A stretch of 64,000 bases of DNA from Tyzzerella sp. An114 (GTDB lineage Bacteria; Bacillota; Clostridia; Lachnospirales; Anaerotignaceae), in the NCBI RefSeq assembly GCF_002161055.1, contig NZ_NFLT01000006.1, positions 124,001 through 188,000 on the forward strand, in the 5' to 3' direction. Below, in pieces: positions 25,997 through 63,401 of the stretch (position 1 is its first letter; every line of letters starts with the position of its first letter). Made by a program: the position numbers and the translations under genes. Below the pieces are notes generated by a model. It was given only the letters and a program-made list of their open reading frames with translations. It did not search any database and was not told the DNA's origin.

Positions 25997-26176
25997 TTAA
26001 ATTTCTTCTACCTTTACAAGGTGGCTTACTTTAGCTATCATTCCTCTGATAGCAGCATTATCTTTCTGAATAACAGAGCTCTGTGTCTTTTTGAGACCTA
26101 AAGCCTGAACGATTTTTTTGTGATTTGGCTTAGCACCAATTGTTGATTTAGCTAATGTGATTTTTAAATCTGCCAT
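25997..26176 (-). CDS. rpmD: 50S ribosomal protein L30
   Basis: 59 residues, ATG at 26174-26176 and TAA at 25997-25999, the usual length. The N terminus [20 protein letters not shown], then [11 protein letters not shown] and [17 protein letters not shown], match L30. A GGAGG Shine-Dalgarno precedes it. It stands between rpsE and rplO, the conserved position in the spc operon. Confidence 0.95.
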
Positions 26177-35001: not shown

Positions 35002-35244
35002 AAAAAAAAGTCCCCTCCTTTTCGCACTTAATTGTTTCAGTACGACAAGTGGTGACTGCACACTTATCCGGGTGTATCTACACACTTATAGACACACTCA
35101 TCGCCCTAATGACGATTTCCTACCCTTATATTCTGTACAGTGACCTTGTCGCCCGGTTTCTTGAACTGGACATCGCTCTGCAGAAAAACCTAAGTCATTG
35201 GGTAACTTAGCAACCTTCTGCTTCATCGCTCTTATGTCACAACA
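35002..35244 (-). promoter_or_regulatory. Structured 5' leader of the S10 operon
   Basis: About 240 nt of RNA with several hairpins. Near the 5' end, GCAGAA...TTCTGC encloses CTAAGT...ACTTAG. Further on, GTGT-CTA...TAG-ATACAC forms another. It has markedly more G+C than the sequence beyond the promoter. A long structured leader here is expected for autoregulation of the S10 operon, but I cannot assign it to a known RNA family by eye. Confidence 0.6.
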
Positions 35245-50337: not shown

Positions 50338-50955
50338 TTATCCTCTCATAAAAGGATTATTTTTTCTCTCATAATCAAGAGTAGTTGAAGGGCCATGTCC
50401 TGGAAAAACTTTATAATCTCCCTTAAACTCAGAAAGCTTTTTAAGTGATTTTATAATTTCTTTATAATCCCCTGTCTCAAAATCTGTTCTTCCACAGCTT
50501 CCCTGAAAAAGTGTGTCTCCTGATATTATACAATCACCTATTAAAAGACAAATACTTCCCTCTGTATGTCCTGGTGTATGCATAACTTTAAAACTCATTT
50601 CTCCAACAGTGAAAGTCTCACCATCTTTCAACAAAACATCAGGTATAATACTTACATCTCCCCCCATATAACAAGAAAGATTTATAGCTGGGTCTTGTAA
50701 AACTCTTGTTTCATGCTCTCCCGCACAAACCTTACAGCCATATTTTTCTTTAATCTCATCAACAGCACTTATATGGTCTCCATGACCATGAGTAAGTATT
50801 ATGTATGAAGGCTTTATATTATTTTTTTCAAAATAATCTTCAAATATTCCAGCATCACCCTCACAATCAATAATAACACAGTTTTTTTCACTGTCTGTAA
50901 GAACATAACAGTTTGTTCCACCATTACCCATAACAAAACATTTCATTTCTATCAT
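50338..50955 (-). CDS. MBL-fold metallo-hydrolase, glyoxalase II-like
   Basis: About 205 residues from the ATG at 50955, ~10 nt after AAGGAGAG. The metal-binding motif THGHGDHIS is near residue 58, with further His in HTPGHTEGS, the Asp ligand in SGDTLFQGSCGRTDF and the last His in FPGHGPSTT. This pattern matches the YcbL/glyoxalase II-like branch. The CYVL and VIIDCEGD N-terminal features agree. It hydrolyses thioester-like or unknown substrates. It appears to be a single gene. Confidence 0.88.
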   Translation of the reverse strand: MIEMKCFVMGNGGTNCYVLTDSEKNCVIIDCEGDAGIFEDYFEKNNIKPSYIILTHGHGDHISAVDEIKEKYGCKVCAGEHETRVLQDPAINLSCYMGGDVSIIPDVLLKDGETFTVGEMSFKVMHTPGHTEGSICLLIGDCIISGDTLFQGSCGRTDFETGDYKEIIKSLKKLSEFKGDYKVFPGHGPSTTLDYERKNNPFMRG

Positions 50956-51165
50956 TAATCTATCTCTCCTTATTATCACAATTATACTTTAATATGAATA
51001 TTATAATCATAAAGTCATTTATCTATCAATATTTTTATATTCCAAAAATATTTTTAATACTTTTGTTCTAAAGTAGCGTATATTTACATATAGATAACAT
51101 TACCTAAATATTTTTATAACAGGTTTATGATATTTATTATATATAAGATGAAAGGAGATGATAAT

Positions 51166-51264
51166 ATGAAAAATACTATAACAGTAAACACAGCTAACAC
51201 AACAAATACAGTTAATACAATTCCTGTGGAGGTATTAGAGGAATGTCTTTATCTTATAGACTAA
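51166..51264 (+). CDS. Putative 32-residue Thr/Asn-rich peptide
   Basis: ATG at 51166 with a near-ideal AAAGGAGATG Shine-Dalgarno 8 nt upstream. The frame ends in three consecutive in-frame stops (TAA TGA TAA) and is followed 10 bp later by a strong terminator. The N-terminal half is a Thr/Asn/Val repeat-like run (TVNTANTTNTVNT); the C-terminal half is IPVEVLEECLYLID with one Cys. No family is recognised. It is not hydrophobic enough for a type I toxin. It is the only plus-strand gene here and stands alone between an MBL hydrolase and a GGDEF gene. I see no confident promoter. It may be a signalling or modified peptide, but this is speculative. Confidence 0.6.
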   Translation: MKNTITVNTANTTNTVNTIPVEVLEECLYLID

Positions 51265-51273
51265 TGATAATAT

Positions 51274-51322
51274 AAAAAAAGAGAGTATTTTATTTTTAAA
51301 ATAAAAAAATACTCTCTTTTTT
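51274..51322. terminator. Bidirectional terminator between the 32-aa peptide gene and the GGDEF gene
   Basis: Arms AAAAAAGAGAGTATTTT and the complement ending in CTCTCTTTTTT form a long stem with A- and T-runs on both sides. It serves both convergent genes. Confidence 0.88.
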
Positions 51323-51328
51323 ATTTGT

Positions 51329-52513
51329 TCAAAAATTCAAATCATCAAAAAACATAAAATTATTTTTACCATTATTTTTAACATAATAAAGTGCCTTATC
51401 AGCCTTTTCAAAAATATCATTCCAAAGTGTATATTTATATACCTTTTCAGTATGTACACCTAAACTTATAGAAAGATTTACATTTTCAATAGCAGTAGGA
51501 ATATTCAAATTTCTTATAGAATTAAGAAGTACACAACTTAAATTTTTTGCATCCCCTTTTTTCATATTAGGTACTACAACACAAATTTCCTCGCCACCAT
51601 ATCTAACAGCATAACCATATTTTATATTTGAAATTATTGTTTGTGATACAATTCTAAGTATATCATCACCTTTTTGATGACCAAAATAGTCATTAAAAAG
51701 CTTAAAATTATCAATATCAATAACAAATATAGATATATAACCATAACCTACAGCTACACTTTTAAATATATTATCTATATTTTCATCAAAAAATCGTCTG
51801 TTATAAAGACCTGTAAGAGAGTCATGTTCCAAAAGATTTTTTAACATTTTATTTTTTTCTTCTATCTCATTTTTTTGAGATATTATTATTTTCTTTTCAC
51901 AAAAACTTTGTCGCTCTCTAGAAAATTTATATACACTTATAAATATAGCTGAAAAAGCTATACAAATTGTAGATACCATAGCACCATAATGCTGGCTGCC
52001 TGTGGTTTTATCAAATATATTAAGTGCAACAACAAACAAAATTGCAGGTATAGAAAAAATAAAAACAGCCTGTATAGGTGTCATATATACAAGTAAACCT
52101 ATAAACATCATACCTGTAACATACTGAGATATATTATTCCCTACACGTTGGTCATAAAGTGTAACAGATGCAATCCAAAATATATAAAAAAAAGAAAAAA
52201 CAAACTGAAGATTTATAATACCTCTATAATTGGATTTATCCATATTTACACCAATTAATATAACAACCAAAGACACAATAAGCATTATTATATAAAACAC
52301 TGTATAAACTTTACTAGCAACACTTCTAAGTGTAAAATCAGTGTATATAAGTGTATGTATTATATTATAAATTTGAAATACAGGTATAATGAACAAAATA
52401 AATTTCATATATTTAATTATTTTTTTAGACTCTTCAATAAGAAATTCCTTTTCCATTTCTTCATTTAGGTATGCCATGTTAAAAAAACTTTTAATAGTAT
52501 CAAATAAATTCAT
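51329..52513 (-). CDS. Membrane-bound diguanylate cyclase (GGDEF domain)
   Basis: 394 residues from the ATG at 52513, six nt after GGTGGGG; the longer open frame runs back through the tRNA-Arg gene and is not real. Six membrane segments fill residues ~35-215. A short coiled coil (EIEEKNKMLKNLLEHDSLTG) leads to the GGDEF domain, with DIDNFKLFNDYFGHQKGD and the active-site loop RYGGEEI. The usual fifth residue Phe is Ile. No RxxD inhibition site is seen at the usual spacing before the loop. It probably makes cyclic di-GMP. No EAL domain or ligand-binding motif is visible. Confidence 0.85.
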   Translation of the reverse strand: MNLFDTIKSFFNMAYLNEEMEKEFLIEESKKIIKYMKFILFIIPVFQIYNIIHTLIYTDFTLRSVASKVYTVFYIIMLIVSLVVILIGVNMDKSNYRGIINLQFVFSFFYIFWIASVTLYDQRVGNNISQYVTGMMFIGLLVYMTPIQAVFIFSIPAILFVVALNIFDKTTGSQHYGAMVSTICIAFSAIFISVYKFSRERQSFCEKKIIISQKNEIEEKNKMLKNLLEHDSLTGLYNRRFFDENIDNIFKSVAVGYGYISIFVIDIDNFKLFNDYFGHQKGDDILRIVSQTIISNIKYGYAVRYGGEEICVVVPNMKKGDAKNLSCVLLNSIRNLNIPTAIENVNLSISLGVHTEKVYKYTLWNDIFEKADKALYYVKNNGKNNFMFFDDLNF

Positions 52514-52564
52514 AAAATTCCCCACCAAAATAAAATTTAAATTTATTATACTATATGAGAACAT

Positions 52565-52598: not shown

Positions 52599-52604
52599 AA
52601 TTGA

Positions 52605-52678
<74 letters not shown>

Positions 52679-52708
52679 ATATTCACATTACTTATCAGAA
52701 CGAATTAT

Positions 52709-53906: not shown

Positions 53907-54101
53907 ATGTGGATTTATGAAAAAAAACTTGAATTTCCTGTAAAAATTAAAAAGCCCGACGGAAGGCTTGCAAAAATAATGATTGAACAGTATGGGGGTT
54001 CTGACGGAGAACTGGGAGCAGCTTTAAGATATTTAAGCCAAAAATTTACTATGGTTACACCAGAGGCAAAAGCAACATTAAACGATGTAGGTAGTTCGTG
54101 A
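53907..54101 (+). CDS. cotJC: 5' segment of interrupted cotJC (spore coat Mn-catalase-like protein)
   Basis: ATG at 53907 with AAAGGAG upstream. The first 62 codons encode the normal CotJC N terminus (MWIYEKKLEFPVKIKKPDGRLAK, in part; then EQYGGSDGELGAALRYLSQKFTM) up to ATLNDVG. They include the first metal-ligand Glu in GGSDGELGA. The frame then enters foreign sequence (SS) and stops at 54099-54101. The rest of the gene is at 56322-56741. The junction falls at TAGGTA (54088-54093). As it stands, this segment makes a 64-residue fragment without most of the metal site. Confidence 0.92.
   Translation: MWIYEKKLEFPVKIKKPDGRLAKIMIEQYGGSDGELGAALRYLSQKFTMVTPEAKATLNDVGSS
54088..54093 (+). repeat. 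Left junction core (attL-like) TAGGTA
   Basis: Six-base direct repeat at the left edge of the element. cotJC sequence (AACGATG) lies to its left and element sequence (GTTCGTG) to its right. Confidence 0.85.
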
Positions 54102-54113
54102 TAAAAATTTAAT

Positions 54114-54139
54114 AAAAAAGCGGATATATAAATATCCGC
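54114..54139 (-). terminator. Terminator of the aminotransferase gene
   Basis: Stem GCGGATAT / ATATCCGC (54120-54127, 54132-54139) with a 4-nt loop. On the minus strand it is followed by six T (54114-54119). It lies just inside the element's left end and could also stop transcription coming from cotJ before excision. Confidence 0.87.
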
Positions 54140-54147
54140 CTAAAATT

Positions 54148-55320
54148 TTATTTTTTAATTATTCCACTCTTATCAATAGCATCAATAAGTTCTTCTATTT
54201 TCTCAACAGGTAAAACAAGAGCAAATCTTACATGACCCTCTCCAAGAGAGCCAAAGCTTGAACCCGGAGTACATATAACACCTGTTTTCTCTAAAAGTTC
54301 CATACAAAATTCTTCTGAGTTTGTATATCCCTTTGGTAATGGTCCCCATGCAAACATAGTGCCTTCTGAGTCTGGTACATTCCAACCTATTTTTCTAAGA
54401 CCACCACAGAGGGCATCACGTCTTTTTTGATATTCTAAACGGTTTCTTTCAAGTATATCCTGTGGACCATTTAAAGCTGCAATAGCTGCTTTCTGTACAG
54501 GAATGAAAATACCATAGTCAATTTGTGTTCTTATATTTTTAAATTTGCTTATTATCTCTTTATTTCCCAGAGCAAAAGAAATTCTTGCACCTGTAAGATT
54601 ATAACTTTTTGAAAGAGAATTAAATTCTATTCCAACATCTTTTGCACCTTCAAATTTTAAGAATGAAGTTCCCTGTCTTCCGTCAAATATAATTTCAGAG
54701 TAAGCATTATCATGGATAATAATGATATTATATTTCTTAGCAAAAGCAATAAGTTTTACATAAAACTCATCAGGAGCTGTCTTACAGACTGGATTTGCTG
54801 GGAAAGATACAATCATAACTTTAGCTTTTTTAGCAAGTTCTTCATCAAAATTATCAAGGTCAGGAAGATAATTATTTTCTTCCACAAGCTGATAGTATTC
54901 AAGTTTTGCACCAGCTAAAAATGGAGCTGTACTAAATATAGGATAACATGGGTCTGGAACAAGAACAGTATCCCCCTCATTACAGAGAGCAAGACAAACA
55001 TGAGTAATACCCTCTTGAGAACCATAAACAGACATAATTTCATCAGTTTCAAGAGTTACATCATATCTTCTCTTATACCAATTCTGAACAGCCTCCAAAA
55101 GTTCAGGCATATCAGCCAAAGCATATTTATAGCTATCAGGATTTAATGCAGCCTCTGAAACAGCCTGCATAACATGAGCATCTGGTTTAAAGTCAGGAGT
55201 ACCAACCGAAAGATTATAAACAGTTTTACCCTCTTTAATCATCTGATTTTTTTTCTCATTGAGAACAGAAAATATATTAGGCTTAAAGCTTTCTTCTCTA
55301 TCAGAAAAAACAAAATTCAT
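54148..55320 (-). CDS. PLP-dependent class I/II aminotransferase carried in the element
   Basis: 390 residues from the ATG at 55320, 8 nt after GGGGG. The fold-type I motifs are NLSVGTPDF near residue 33, YGSQEGITHVC (phosphate-binding region) near 93, PNPCYPIF-like PDPCYPIF, SFPANPVCKTAP near 172, and the PLP Lys in SLSKSYNLTGARISFALGN near 236. The end has GTMFAWGPLPKGY and HVRFALV. It resembles LL-diaminopimelate/aspartate-type aminotransferases; the exact substrate is unknown. G+C looks like the host, unlike the AT-rich recombinase. A TATAAT box (minus strand, 55360-55365) suggests vegetative expression. It would be lost from the mother-cell chromosome on excision. Confidence 0.88.
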   Translation of the reverse strand: MNFVFSDREESFKPNIFSVLNEKKNQMIKEGKTVYNLSVGTPDFKPDAHVMQAVSEAALNPDSYKYALADMPELLEAVQNWYKRRYDVTLETDEIMSVYGSQEGITHVCLALCNEGDTVLVPDPCYPIFSTAPFLAGAKLEYYQLVEENNYLPDLDNFDEELAKKAKVMIVSFPANPVCKTAPDEFYVKLIAFAKKYNIIIIHDNAYSEIIFDGRQGTSFLKFEGAKDVGIEFNSLSKSYNLTGARISFALGNKEIISKFKNIRTQIDYGIFIPVQKAAIAALNGPQDILERNRLEYQKRRDALCGGLRKIGWNVPDSEGTMFAWGPLPKGYTNSEEFCMELLEKTGVICTPGSSFGSLGEGHVRFALVLPVEKIEELIDAIDKSGIIKK

Positions 55321-55400
55321 AAATAATTCCCCCTTATTTTTCATTTTGATATGTGGAAAATTATAATACAAATTTTTAAAAAAGGATAGAGAAAAACCGT

Positions 55401-55426
55401 ATAAAATTAAACAAAAAACATAAATA
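55401..55426 (+). promoter_or_regulatory. Candidate sigma-E-like promoter of the recombinase gene
   Basis: ATA (55401-55403), 15-bp spacer, CATAAATA (55419-55426), close to the mother-cell sigma-E pattern (ATA, ~16 bp, CATACANT). The start codon is ~33 bp downstream. The match is partial and the region is AT-rich. Confidence 0.35.
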
Positions 55427-55459
55427 TTAATAGTAAATAAAAATAAAGGATTATTTTAT

Positions 55460-56326
55460 ATGAAAAAAGCAGCAGTATATTGTCGTGTATCAACAGAAAA
55501 AACCGACCAAATAAACTCACTACAATCACAAAAAAATTTTTTTACAGATTACATATCAAAATCAGATAACATAGAACTTTATAAAATATACTGTGATGAA
55601 GGGAAAACAGGAACAACAGTATCAGGAAGAAAAGAATTTATGAAAATGATAAATGAAGGGCTAAAAGGAGAATATGACATAATACTTACAAAAGAAATAA
55701 GCCGTTTTGCAAGAAACACTTTAGACAGCATAAAATACACAAGAATACTAAAATCAAAAGGAATAGGAATATATTTTATAAATGATGGCATATACACCCT
55801 TGAAAATGACTCAGAACTTCGTCTTGCAATACTTTCATCAATAGCACAGGAGGAAAGCCGAAAAACCTCTGAGAGAGTACGCTTTGGACAAAAAATAAGT
55901 ATGGAAAAAGGTGTTGTCTTTGGAAGAAGTCTTTTAGGCTATGATGTTAAAAACGGAGAAATGCATATAAATGAAGAAGGAGCAAAAATTGTACGTTTAA
56001 TATTTTCAATGGCAAAACAAGGCATGGGAAGTTATAAAATATCAAAAAAACTTATGGAAATGGAAATTCCATCTTTTAGTGGCAATAATATATGGCATAA
56101 TTCAATGATACATAAAATATTGAGAAATGAAAAATACACAGGAGACCTTGTACAACAAAAAACATACACAACAGACTACCTAAACCATAAAAGAAAATAT
56201 AATAAGGGAGAAAGAGAATTTATAATAATAAGAAATCACCATGAGCCTATAATAGACAGAGAAACATTTTTAAAAGTACAAAAAATACTTGATAAAAGAA
56301 AAAAATCATCACCCAATAGGTACTGA
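55460..56326 (+). CDS. Short large-serine-type recombinase of the cotJC element
   Basis: 288 residues. The resolvase domain has AVYCRVSTEKTDQ (nucleophile Ser near residue 11), DEGKTGTTVSGRKEF and KEISRFARNTLDS. The Recombinase domain follows (FGRSLLGYDVKNG ... IHKILRNEKYTGDLVQQK ... HHEPIIDRETFLKVQKIL) and the protein stops at once. Typical large serine recombinases such as SpoIVCA are ~450-550 residues and add a zinc ribbon with CxxC pairs and a coiled coil; both are absent. The final codons AGG TAC TGA lie across the right core, so the stop codon is made of cotJC sequence. It is very AT-rich with many ATA and AGA codons. It is the likely excisionase of the element. Confidence 0.92.
   Translation: MKKAAVYCRVSTEKTDQINSLQSQKNFFTDYISKSDNIELYKIYCDEGKTGTTVSGRKEFMKMINEGLKGEYDIILTKEISRFARNTLDSIKYTRILKSKGIGIYFINDGIYTLENDSELRLAILSSIAQEESRKTSERVRFGQKISMEKGVVFGRSLLGYDVKNGEMHINEEGAKIVRLIFSMAKQGMGSYKISKKLMEMEIPSFSGNNIWHNSMIHKILRNEKYTGDLVQQKTYTTDYLNHKRKYNKGEREFIIIRNHHEPIIDRETFLKVQKILDKRKKSSPNRY
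56317..56322 (+). repeat. Right junction core (attR-like) TAGGTA
   Basis: Second copy of the six-base repeat. Element sequence (CACCCAA) lies to its left and cotJC sequence (CTGAGGAATTAGC) to its right. It overlaps the recombinase 3' end. Confidence 0.85.
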
Positions 56327-56741
56327 GGAATTAGCACACCTTGAAATGATGGGAACAATAGTAAAACAGCTTACACAAGGTCTTAGTGATAAAGAAATAA
56401 AAGAAGCAGGACTTGACCCTTATTATGTAGCCCACGGTTTAGGAGTATATCCATCATCAGCGGCCGGAGTTCCTTGGACAGCATCATATATGCAGTCAAA
56501 GGGAGACCCTATAACAGACCTTTACGAGAATATGGCAGCAGAACAAAAAGCTCGCTCAACCTATGAATATTTAATGGATTTAACAGATGACCCAGATGTT
56601 TTAGCACCTTTAAGATTTTTAAGAGAAAGAGAAGTTGTTCATTTCCAGCGTTTCGGAGAAGCCTTAGGAATTGTAAGAGATTATATGAATGAAAACAGAT
56701 TTTTCAAAATGGGAAACACTAAAAATATAAAATGGAGATAA
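56322..56741 (+). CDS. cotJC: 3' segment of interrupted cotJC
   Basis: 139 codons in frame with the 5' segment after removal of 2,229 bp. The sequence continues TEELAHLEMMGTIVKQLT, AAGVPWTASYMQSKGDPITDLYENMAAEQKARSTYEYL (in part), and LREREVVHFQRFGEALGIV. The EELAHLE and EREVVHFQ motifs supply the remaining Glu and His ligands of the di-manganese site. No stop, frameshift or decay is visible, which argues that the gene is still under selection. It has no start codon or Shine-Dalgarno of its own at the junction. The rejoined protein would be 201 residues. Confidence 0.92.
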   Translation, partial: TEELAHLEMMGTIVKQLTQGLSDKEIKEAGLDPYYVAHGLGVYPSSAAGVPWTASYMQSKGDPITDLYENMAAEQKARSTYEYLMDLTDDPDVLAPLRFLREREVVHFQRFGEALGIVRDYMNENRFFKMGNTKNIKWR

Positions 56742-63109: not shown

Positions 63110-63401
63110 AAAAAAACCTTCGTCCGAAAAAAATAACAGGACGAAGGTTACCGCGTTACCACCTGAATTGTCGTTTGTAAACAAAAAACGACCTCTCAAA
63201 AAATCCCTTTAACGGCGGAAAACCGTCAGAAGCTACTAAATAAAAAATTTTTCACTCTGCCACTTAGGGGTGATATTCATCAAAAATCTAATCGCACCGG
63301 ACTCTCACCATAACCGGCTCGCTTTTGCTTTCAATAAAAGACTACTGTCCCCGTCATTGTGTTTAACTTTATCTGTATATAAAATAAAATTATACCAATA
63401 C
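63110..63401 (-). promoter_or_regulatory. Isoleucine T-box riboswitch upstream of ileS
   Basis: On the minus strand, the conserved T-box AGGTGGTAACGCGG lies at 63151-63164. It is followed by a terminator (AACCTTCGTCC / GGACGAAGG, 63110-63149) ending in seven T. Stem I contains AATGACGGGGA near its base and GAATATCACCCC in the specifier loop, whose ATC codon reads isoleucine. The start lies near 63401, from the promoter at 63408-63436. Uncharged tRNA-Ile would stabilise the antiterminator and allow ileS transcription. Confidence 0.93.

Follow-up and report, generated by a model that had tools for sequence, protein, structure and literature searches.

The window analysed here, a 64,000-nucleotide stretch of DNA from Tyzzerella sp. 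An114, contains a reading frame of 32 codons that is very probably a real gene, judging from its sequence and that of its relatives. Its product appears to belong to a well-supported family of 16- to 52-residue proteins with representatives in at least three families of clostridia, and we regard the existence of both the gene and the family as almost certain. What the protein does can be addressed only at lower confidence: taken as a whole, the reading that we favour, namely a genuine, monocistronic gene whose small product is soluble and cytoplasmic, docks on a larger partner through its core and has a thiol that matters, is an evenly balanced proposition.

A short frame with its own expression signals

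The frame, the Shine-Dalgarno sequence, the three in-frame stops and the strong terminator that an earlier sequence-only reading of this DNA had described were all found as described, and their coordinates are collected in Table 1 together with the parts of the encoded peptide. A longer frame of 45 codons opens upstream at ATG 51127, but the Shine-Dalgarno sequence and the relatives point to 51166 as the true start; a context like that of the window gene, AAAGGAGATGATA, also lies ahead of the starts in three related genomes (G002, G037 and G056). The hairpin has a folding energy of -17.8 kcal/mol (z -5.3 against 200 dinucleotide shuffles) and folds equally well on the minus strand (-17.3 kcal/mol). 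Because it is nearly symmetrical and folds on both strands, and because a convergent GGDEF-like gene (51329-52515, named by eye) ends at 51329, the terminator is probably bidirectional and shared with that gene. On the other side lies a divergent gene of metallo-beta-lactamase type (50338-50979, by eye), and a tRNA-Arg is encoded on the minus strand at 52603-52679. No sigma-factor model was significant for the promoter of the window copy, the plus strand showing just 9-of-12 sigma-70-like matches; the upstream block listed in Table 1 is a possible promoter or operator region.

Table 1. Features of the small gene and its flanks (positions in the window)
Feature	Position	Strand	Basis
Small-protein gene, 32 codons + TAA, MKNTITVNTANTTNTVNTIPVEVLEECLYLID	51166..51264	+	ATG 51166, stop TAA 51262; homologues, selection
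Shine-Dalgarno sequence AAAGGAG	51151..51157	+	7 contiguous matches to the reference; ends 8 bases before ATG 51166
Residues 1-18, variable Thr/Asn/Val-rich extension	51166..51219	+	Alignments: poor conservation even inside the genus
Residues 19-32, IPVEVLEECLYLID, conserved family core	51220..51261	+	Alignments; helix 21-31 in the model
Stop codons TAA TGA TAA, three in frame	51262..51270	+	Read from the sequence
Hairpin terminator, nearly symmetrical, T-rich tail	51275..51322	+	Folding energy, both strands
Upstream block TATATTTACATATAnATAACATTACyTAAATATTTwTATAAC, common to genus relative G002	51079..51122	+	Side-by-side comparison by eye

To see how often such a frame arises by chance, we counted ATG frames of 15-60 codons that lie wholly outside ORFs of at least 150 codons and are preceded by at least six contiguous Shine-Dalgarno bases. 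Two frames in the window passed, the one at 51166 and a 59-residue frame at 25997-26176, which looks like ribosomal protein L30; when the 16,463 bases not covered by long ORFs were shuffled by mononucleotide, 1.5 frames passed on average, so that there is no excess at the six-base threshold. Under the stricter threshold of at least 32 codons and seven matching bases, as in the window gene, the shuffles gave 0.05. What decides for a real gene is that other genomes conserve the frame.

Several other features of the window were recorded in passing. The spore-coat gene cotJC is split into two parts (53907-54101 and 56289-56741) by an element at about 54097-56318; the first part ends ...gatgtaGGTA and the second resumes after ...cccaataGGTA. 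Between the parts lie a serine-recombinase-like gene (55460-56326) and an aminotransferase-like gene (54148-55371), both named by eye. Since the intact cotJC of the genus relative G002 (L049:8032-8637) reads through the split point, the insert resembles a skin-type element, here interrupting a coat gene; known cases include sigK, spsM, gerE and yabG. G002 has a close relative of the aminotransferase-like gene outside cotJC (L049:5737-6909), flanked by an ftsH-like gene and by a 317-residue ORF that adjoins cotJC, and the element thus appears to have picked up a host gene from beside it. An ordinary T-box leader (63134-63366) and an S10-Clostridia ribosomal-protein leader (35146-35234), both on the minus strand, scored above the Rfam gathering thresholds.

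A syntenic frame in the same genus

G002, one of two other genomes of the genus analysed (the locus is evidently on contig CALWGF010000002.1, an uncultured Clostridia bacterium MAG), has a frame for the 36-residue peptide MKSHHVILTTPEKENPTNTTTSVPVEVLEECLYLVE, flanked by a tRNA-Arg and by the metallo-beta-lactamase gene also seen in the window, and is thus syntenic with the window. The last 14 residues read VPVEVLEECLYLVE in G002 against IPVEVLEECLYLID in the window; the first halves show no such similarity. Within the final 18 codons, the two copies show 5.5 synonymous differences at 12.7 sites and 7.5 others at 41.3 sites, and the selection signal of this pair alone (pN/pS about 0.42) appears modest, weaker than that of the family described below. 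The intergenic block upstream of the small gene also looks conserved between the two. The GGDEF-like gene is missing from the G002 interval between the small gene and the tRNA-Arg (L049:9835-10016), and would have been either inserted in the window, beside the tRNA, or lost in G002. The third genome of the genus analysed, G001, gave no match to the peptide, nor to the locus and its neighbours, an empty answer that does not establish absence.

A family of very small proteins in clostridia

We searched for further relatives in the taxonomic family of the window genome (f1; 58 genomes, 17 genera) and beyond. A tblastn search of the 58 genomes with the 32-residue peptide found only the peptide itself and the genus relative; the BLAST low-complexity filter was on in this and the other direct peptide searches (phages, plasmids), possibly masking the repetitive half. 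Applied to the order (392 genomes), a two-row profile matched 20 genomes at E<=0.1, with 18 matches besides those in the genome itself and in G002. Three of the eleven that we read were real (in G037, G031 and G039, all in f1), and the seven unread ones sit in frames of 125-1115 residues. The three new members are complete minute ORFs with strong Shine-Dalgarno sequences (MNDSIPQDIIEECLYLLG, MITIPQEVIDECLLLIG and MTITQELIEECLYLID). A 32-column profile then matched 13 f1 genomes across the order, plus one chance match.

With iterated profile searches, a tiny stand-alone ORF of 16-36 residues was found in 14 of the 58 f1 genomes and 6 of the 17 genera, one copy in each genome (two of three genomes in g1, five of five in g7, the only one in g9, both in g11, all three in g13 and one of two in g17). 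Thirteen of these members matched at E<=1.1e-6, the next match (E 0.009) lying inside a 224-residue frame; the fourteenth, MNNNDLLLELELIEECLLLLD in G046, has an E-value of 0.64 and was taken in for its own ORF, its Shine-Dalgarno sequence and its synteny with G047. No copy was found in the other 44 genomes, some of whose assemblies are incomplete: 31 gave no match even at E<=1, and the matches in the other 13 fell in frames taken as chance, some of which we read. Because 44 of 58 genomes yielded no copy, the gene would be either dispensable or diverged past detection in much of the family.

All 14 members end with the conserved stretch, five residues past a single Cys, and 12 of them begin shortly ahead of this tail and have only 16-21 residues. 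The Thr/Asn/Val-rich first half by which the sequence-only reading had characterized the peptide is indeed present in the window copy, yet it is lineage-specific and no signature, the conserved core being IPVEVLEECLYLID. Conservation of a strikingly repetitive frame can thus stem from its plain-looking tail.

Beyond f1, the f1-only profile gave four further matches among 391 genomes of the class at E 0.0018-0.0088 (cut at E<=0.01), which is about the number expected by chance. All four fell in one other family, f64, and all are short Shine-Dalgarno-led ORFs (for example MENNFIITKEVIEECLEECFDESSHKSNKKEKINSISNK). Only the ORF form common to these first matches and the later expansion make the homology of the f1 and f64 sets convincing. 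At E<=0.05, a profile that took in these f64 members had matches in 54 of the family's 146 genomes and in 18 of its 46 genera, with up to three per genome. We read all but one of the 87 matches, the exception sitting within a frame of 389 residues. Of the 86 read, 85 were short frames whose start codon is close to the core, and one (L205) was dropped for want of a usable start. Depending on the start chosen, f64 members range from 20 residues (MEIKFEIPIDVIEECLVYLD, close to the f1 form in length and ending) to 52. A 40-row profile run over 376 genomes of the class gave 14 matches at E<=0.01: the genome itself, eight in f64, four in a further family, f50, and one chance match, in G724, that lies inside a dnaX-like gene. 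The f50 copies, LNKGTFLVTPSVIEECLGESFDASEKKHPEHDKTQKTWK and close variants, come from four genomes of one genus. Compared directly, the f1 and f64 profiles matched with a probability of 96.6 over 12 columns. The f1-only profile also placed 74 of 80 distinct f64 peptides above every one of 1,600 shuffled decoys (1,327 of them scored), in a test that is partly circular, since the f64 members had been gathered with a profile containing f1 sequences; statistics are in any case weak for a core of 12 to 18 residues.

Two observations concern the f64 set itself. In G775, two copies (MNKEEIFVITIDVIEECLSECLD and MNKEEILVLTGDVIEECLSECLD; L129/L179) share a strand at a distance of some 500 bases, in what looks like a recent tandem duplication. 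Many C-terminal tails fall into types (...VS[SDN]R/K, ...K[KR]xLK and ...K[RK]IA/KRSA), suggesting paralogue groups that may have separate roles.

Could the window frame nonetheless be a chance ORF and its similarities coincidental? The core is short and the single-profile E-values between families are modest, as such an explanation would have it. Against it stand the syntenic orthologue with the same tail in G002, the 13 f1 matches at E<=1.1e-6 (the window's own included), the profile-profile match and, subject to its circularity, the decoy test. A chance frame is thus extremely improbable and for practical purposes refuted. Lack of conservation of the frame, which the sequence-only reading had named as the outcome that would speak against a gene, is the opposite of what we observed, as the frame is conserved across genomes and the family is under purifying selection (see below).

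Conserved core, selection and expression signals

For the analyses of the whole family, L205 and two duplicates were removed from 101 f1 and f64 entries, leaving 98 distinct members; the four f50 members stand outside the neighbour, selection, promoter, Shine-Dalgarno, decoy and hairpin counts. The core reads [FIV]-x-I-[TP]-x-[DE]-V-I-[ED]-E-C-L. Its C and L occur in 98 of 98 members, an invariance that is partly ascertainment because the profiles demand both residues, while the E before the C occurs in 95 and the I at -3 in 93. The window copy has IPVEVLEECL, with L for I at one place, in a short Shine-Dalgarno-led ORF like those of the other members. The Cys is the only one in 45 of the 98 members, and the remainder have more.

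Pooled over 28 non-overlapping pairs (equal length, at least 60% identity, at least two differences, identical pairs excluded; 27 from f64 and one from f1), pN/pS was 0.28 and dN/dS 0.23. The family is under purifying selection, and the product under selection is very likely the protein rather than an RNA. At least five contiguous Shine-Dalgarno matches precede 92% of the 98 members compared with 6.2% of 14,520 background ATG/TTG codons, the former figure being favoured by those entries whose start was chosen partly for its Shine-Dalgarno sequence. A terminator-like hairpin follows, within 80 nt, in 10 of the 14 f1 members (1.2 expected) and 21 of the 84 f64 members (1.5 expected); the scan found none within that distance for the other 63 f64 members.

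Promoter models for sigma-A reached p<=0.05 in 19 of 98 members (about 5 expected), with at least eight exact TTGACA-17-TATAAT arrangements, while the models for sigma-K, sigma-E, sigma-G/F and sigma-H stayed near chance, with 7, 7, 5 and 2 members at the same cut-off against the same expectation of about 5. Three g13 genomes (L106, L109 and L110) have in common a CACACAAA-N13-GCATATA block that fits a sigma-K promoter (p 0.016-0.049), where the promoters of other members are sigma-A-like or unassigned. In three g213 loci (L098, L116 and L117) the small gene is preceded by ATAATATGGAATATxTTTC, and in two g7 loci (L107 and L108) by the inverted repeat GCAGAAA...TTTCTGC; both are candidate operators.

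Genomic neighbourhood

Neighbours were called mechanically as the next ORF of at least 80 codons around all 101 entries, with L205 and the duplicates still counted. Of 97 downstream neighbours, 80 run antiparallel to the small gene, a count that is no clean binomial because related species are not independent, and the 17 same-strand ones begin at least 144 nt away; upstream ORFs are evenly split between the strands (45 and 45). As judged by eye and by clustering, neighbours are common to related species and mostly differ between genera. Those recognized by eye as limited to a group include YbaB and an amidase in g7, a dtxR-like gene and a cardiolipin-synthase-like gene in g13 and, within f64, an amino-acid ABC permease in 16 loci and a peptidase-T-like gene in 5. 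Inspection by eye and clustering showed no sensor, exporter or modifying enzyme recurring beside the gene across genera. The picture is one of free-standing genes in housekeeping surroundings, neither leaders nor members of operons. The isolation that the sequence-only reading had remarked on therefore holds for the gene's context and fails for its ancestry, since the gene has many homologues.

Searches of family libraries, structures, phages and plasmids

The impression that the peptide resembles no family was borne out, in that no catalogued family matched the window peptide or any relative scanned at E<0.001. Among the members scanned, no model in Pfam, NCBIfam, PHROGs (five peptides) or PADLOC (26 of 36 rows, those under 20 residues left out) reached its curated cut-off or E<0.001; the best library match of any of them was one f64 peptide to phrog_36618 (E 0.0023), and the window peptide found nothing below E 0.16. 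Profile searches of the PDB yielded at first a single match (E 0.17), put down to chance, and later nothing. The motif strings DVIEECL, EVIEECL, VIDECLEES, LEECLYLID and IEECLYLID were not found in the literature searched. The family is thus apparently uncatalogued in the libraries searched, beyond which large small-protein catalogues exist. The reason may be that many members fall under the length at which genes are called.

In phages and plasmids the window peptide had no match at E<=10 with the low-complexity filter on; the f64 peptides had none in plasmids apart from a chance match in Natrinema (E 3), and the one f64 peptide run against phages had none. Pattern scans matched 491 stretches in genome contigs, one of them confirmed, and 36 in viral contigs, none confirmed; both are weak negatives, as confirmation was by tblastn with the first row only.

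Alternative explanations

The sequence-only reading had proposed a small signalling or modified peptide, for which we obtained no positive support. A pheromone or other exported peptide that is cut, or a RiPP modified in trans, might be expected to have this size and an invariant Cys, and the conserved stretch followed by a variable tail in many f64 members has the look of a leader plus a core peptide; one member even gave a very weak NCBIfam match to the darobactin precursor (NF038004, E 0.21), at 11.7 bits against a cut-off of 45. Yet the 14 f1 members stop at the conserved stretch, with no core peptide after it, no hydrophobic signal segment was apparent on direct reading of the sequences, and no modifying enzyme, AgrB-like protease, exporter or receptor was seen to recur alongside, by eye or by clustering. 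AgrD-type autoinducer precursors are likewise short peptides, with one Cys followed by hydrophobic residues as in the window copy (CLYLI), but they have an N-terminal membrane helix that is lacking here, no AgrB-like gene was recognized by eye beside the copies read, and a Cys ring segment followed by a cleaved C-terminal tail is not what f1 members have, ending as they do five residues after the Cys; the short members lack a processing tail, and other members have ECLECLD or ECLSECLD. A precursor is thus quite unlikely. Type I toxins combine a hydrophobic membrane-spanning segment with an antisense RNA; direct reading of the sequences here found no hydrophobic segment of that length. We consider a dual-function or regulatory small RNA that acts by base pairing, the peptide being secondary, to be improbable to a like degree: the short free-standing unit with its strong terminator would suit it, and convergence with the next ORF in 80 of 97 loci makes 3' transcript overlap conceivable, but the codon frame is conserved (pN/pS 0.28 over 28 pairs), the convergent neighbour changes between genera, and nothing at the window locus matched Rfam at gathering score.

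Attenuator leader peptides are also very short ORFs close to a hairpin terminator, and the Thr/Asn-rich stretch of the window copy could recall one whose translation controls a downstream gene. Such leaders have a same-strand regulated gene just downstream, however, whereas the downstream gene in the window is convergent, 80 of 97 loci have an antiparallel downstream ORF and the other 17 one that starts at least 144 nt away, and it is a peptide sequence, not a run of one codon, that is conserved; this explanation is very improbable. A late-sporulation protein of the mother cell or the spore is unlikely, though less far-fetched. Spo0A_C is present in 57 of the 58 f1 genomes, the cotJ operon is some 2 kb from the window copy, and the g13 genomes have their sigma-K-like block. 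Being near-universal in f1, however, Spo0A does not discriminate, and the sole f1 genome lacking a Spo0A_C match (G039, 71% complete) carries the small gene; across the 98 members it is sigma-A and not the sporulation sigma factors whose models exceed chance, and most neighbours recognized by eye are not spore genes. The closest parallels in kind may be SpoVM, Sda and MciZ, stand-alone small-protein regulators of Firmicutes, each a tiny cytoplasmic protein with its own gene that binds a larger partner or surface. No sequence relationship to them was noticed, and they differ from the family described here in that its members, most of them no longer than these regulators, have an invariant Cys-Leu pair.

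Predicted structure and possible mode of action

Returning to the reading that we favour, a small soluble protein that acts on a partner, we infer from the sequences and a structural model that the gene is translated and that its product is a soluble, cytoplasmic strand-helix protein. A single-chain AlphaFold2 model made from 36 members has strands at residues 4-8 and 16-20 and a helix at 21-31, with a mean pLDDT of 94 over residues 21-30 and a pTM of 0.41. Within the core, F-x-I corresponds to a strand and [TP]-x-x-[DE] to a helix cap; an acidic amphipathic helix follows, in which V/I, C/L and a third pair would lie on one face.

The working part would thus be a short beta strand followed by an N-capped acidic amphipathic helix with the invariant Cys-Leu pair, and the lineage-specific N- or C-terminal extensions would be disordered decoration. 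From the shape of this free, soluble and conserved element, binding to a larger protein is the likeliest role. The peptide would dock on a larger conserved cell protein, its strand adding to a sheet and its helix packing the V/I-C/L face into a groove, and would thereby modulate that partner; the chances that this mechanism applies seem to us about level. The invariance of the Cys suggests that the thiol itself matters, giving the residue a chemical role (metal, disulfide or redox). A bolder version, in which these are 'thiol micropeptides' with the mid-helix Cys as their active group (for a metal, for redox chemistry or as a covalent partner site) and in which each paralogue, by its tail, tunes or reports to a different partner, is speculative and rather unlikely.

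At 16 residues, the smallest member, MTITQELIEECLYLID, is unusually small for the product of a conserved protein gene. With about 100 members, paralogues, this minimal form and an invariant Cys, the function of the family is experimentally accessible.
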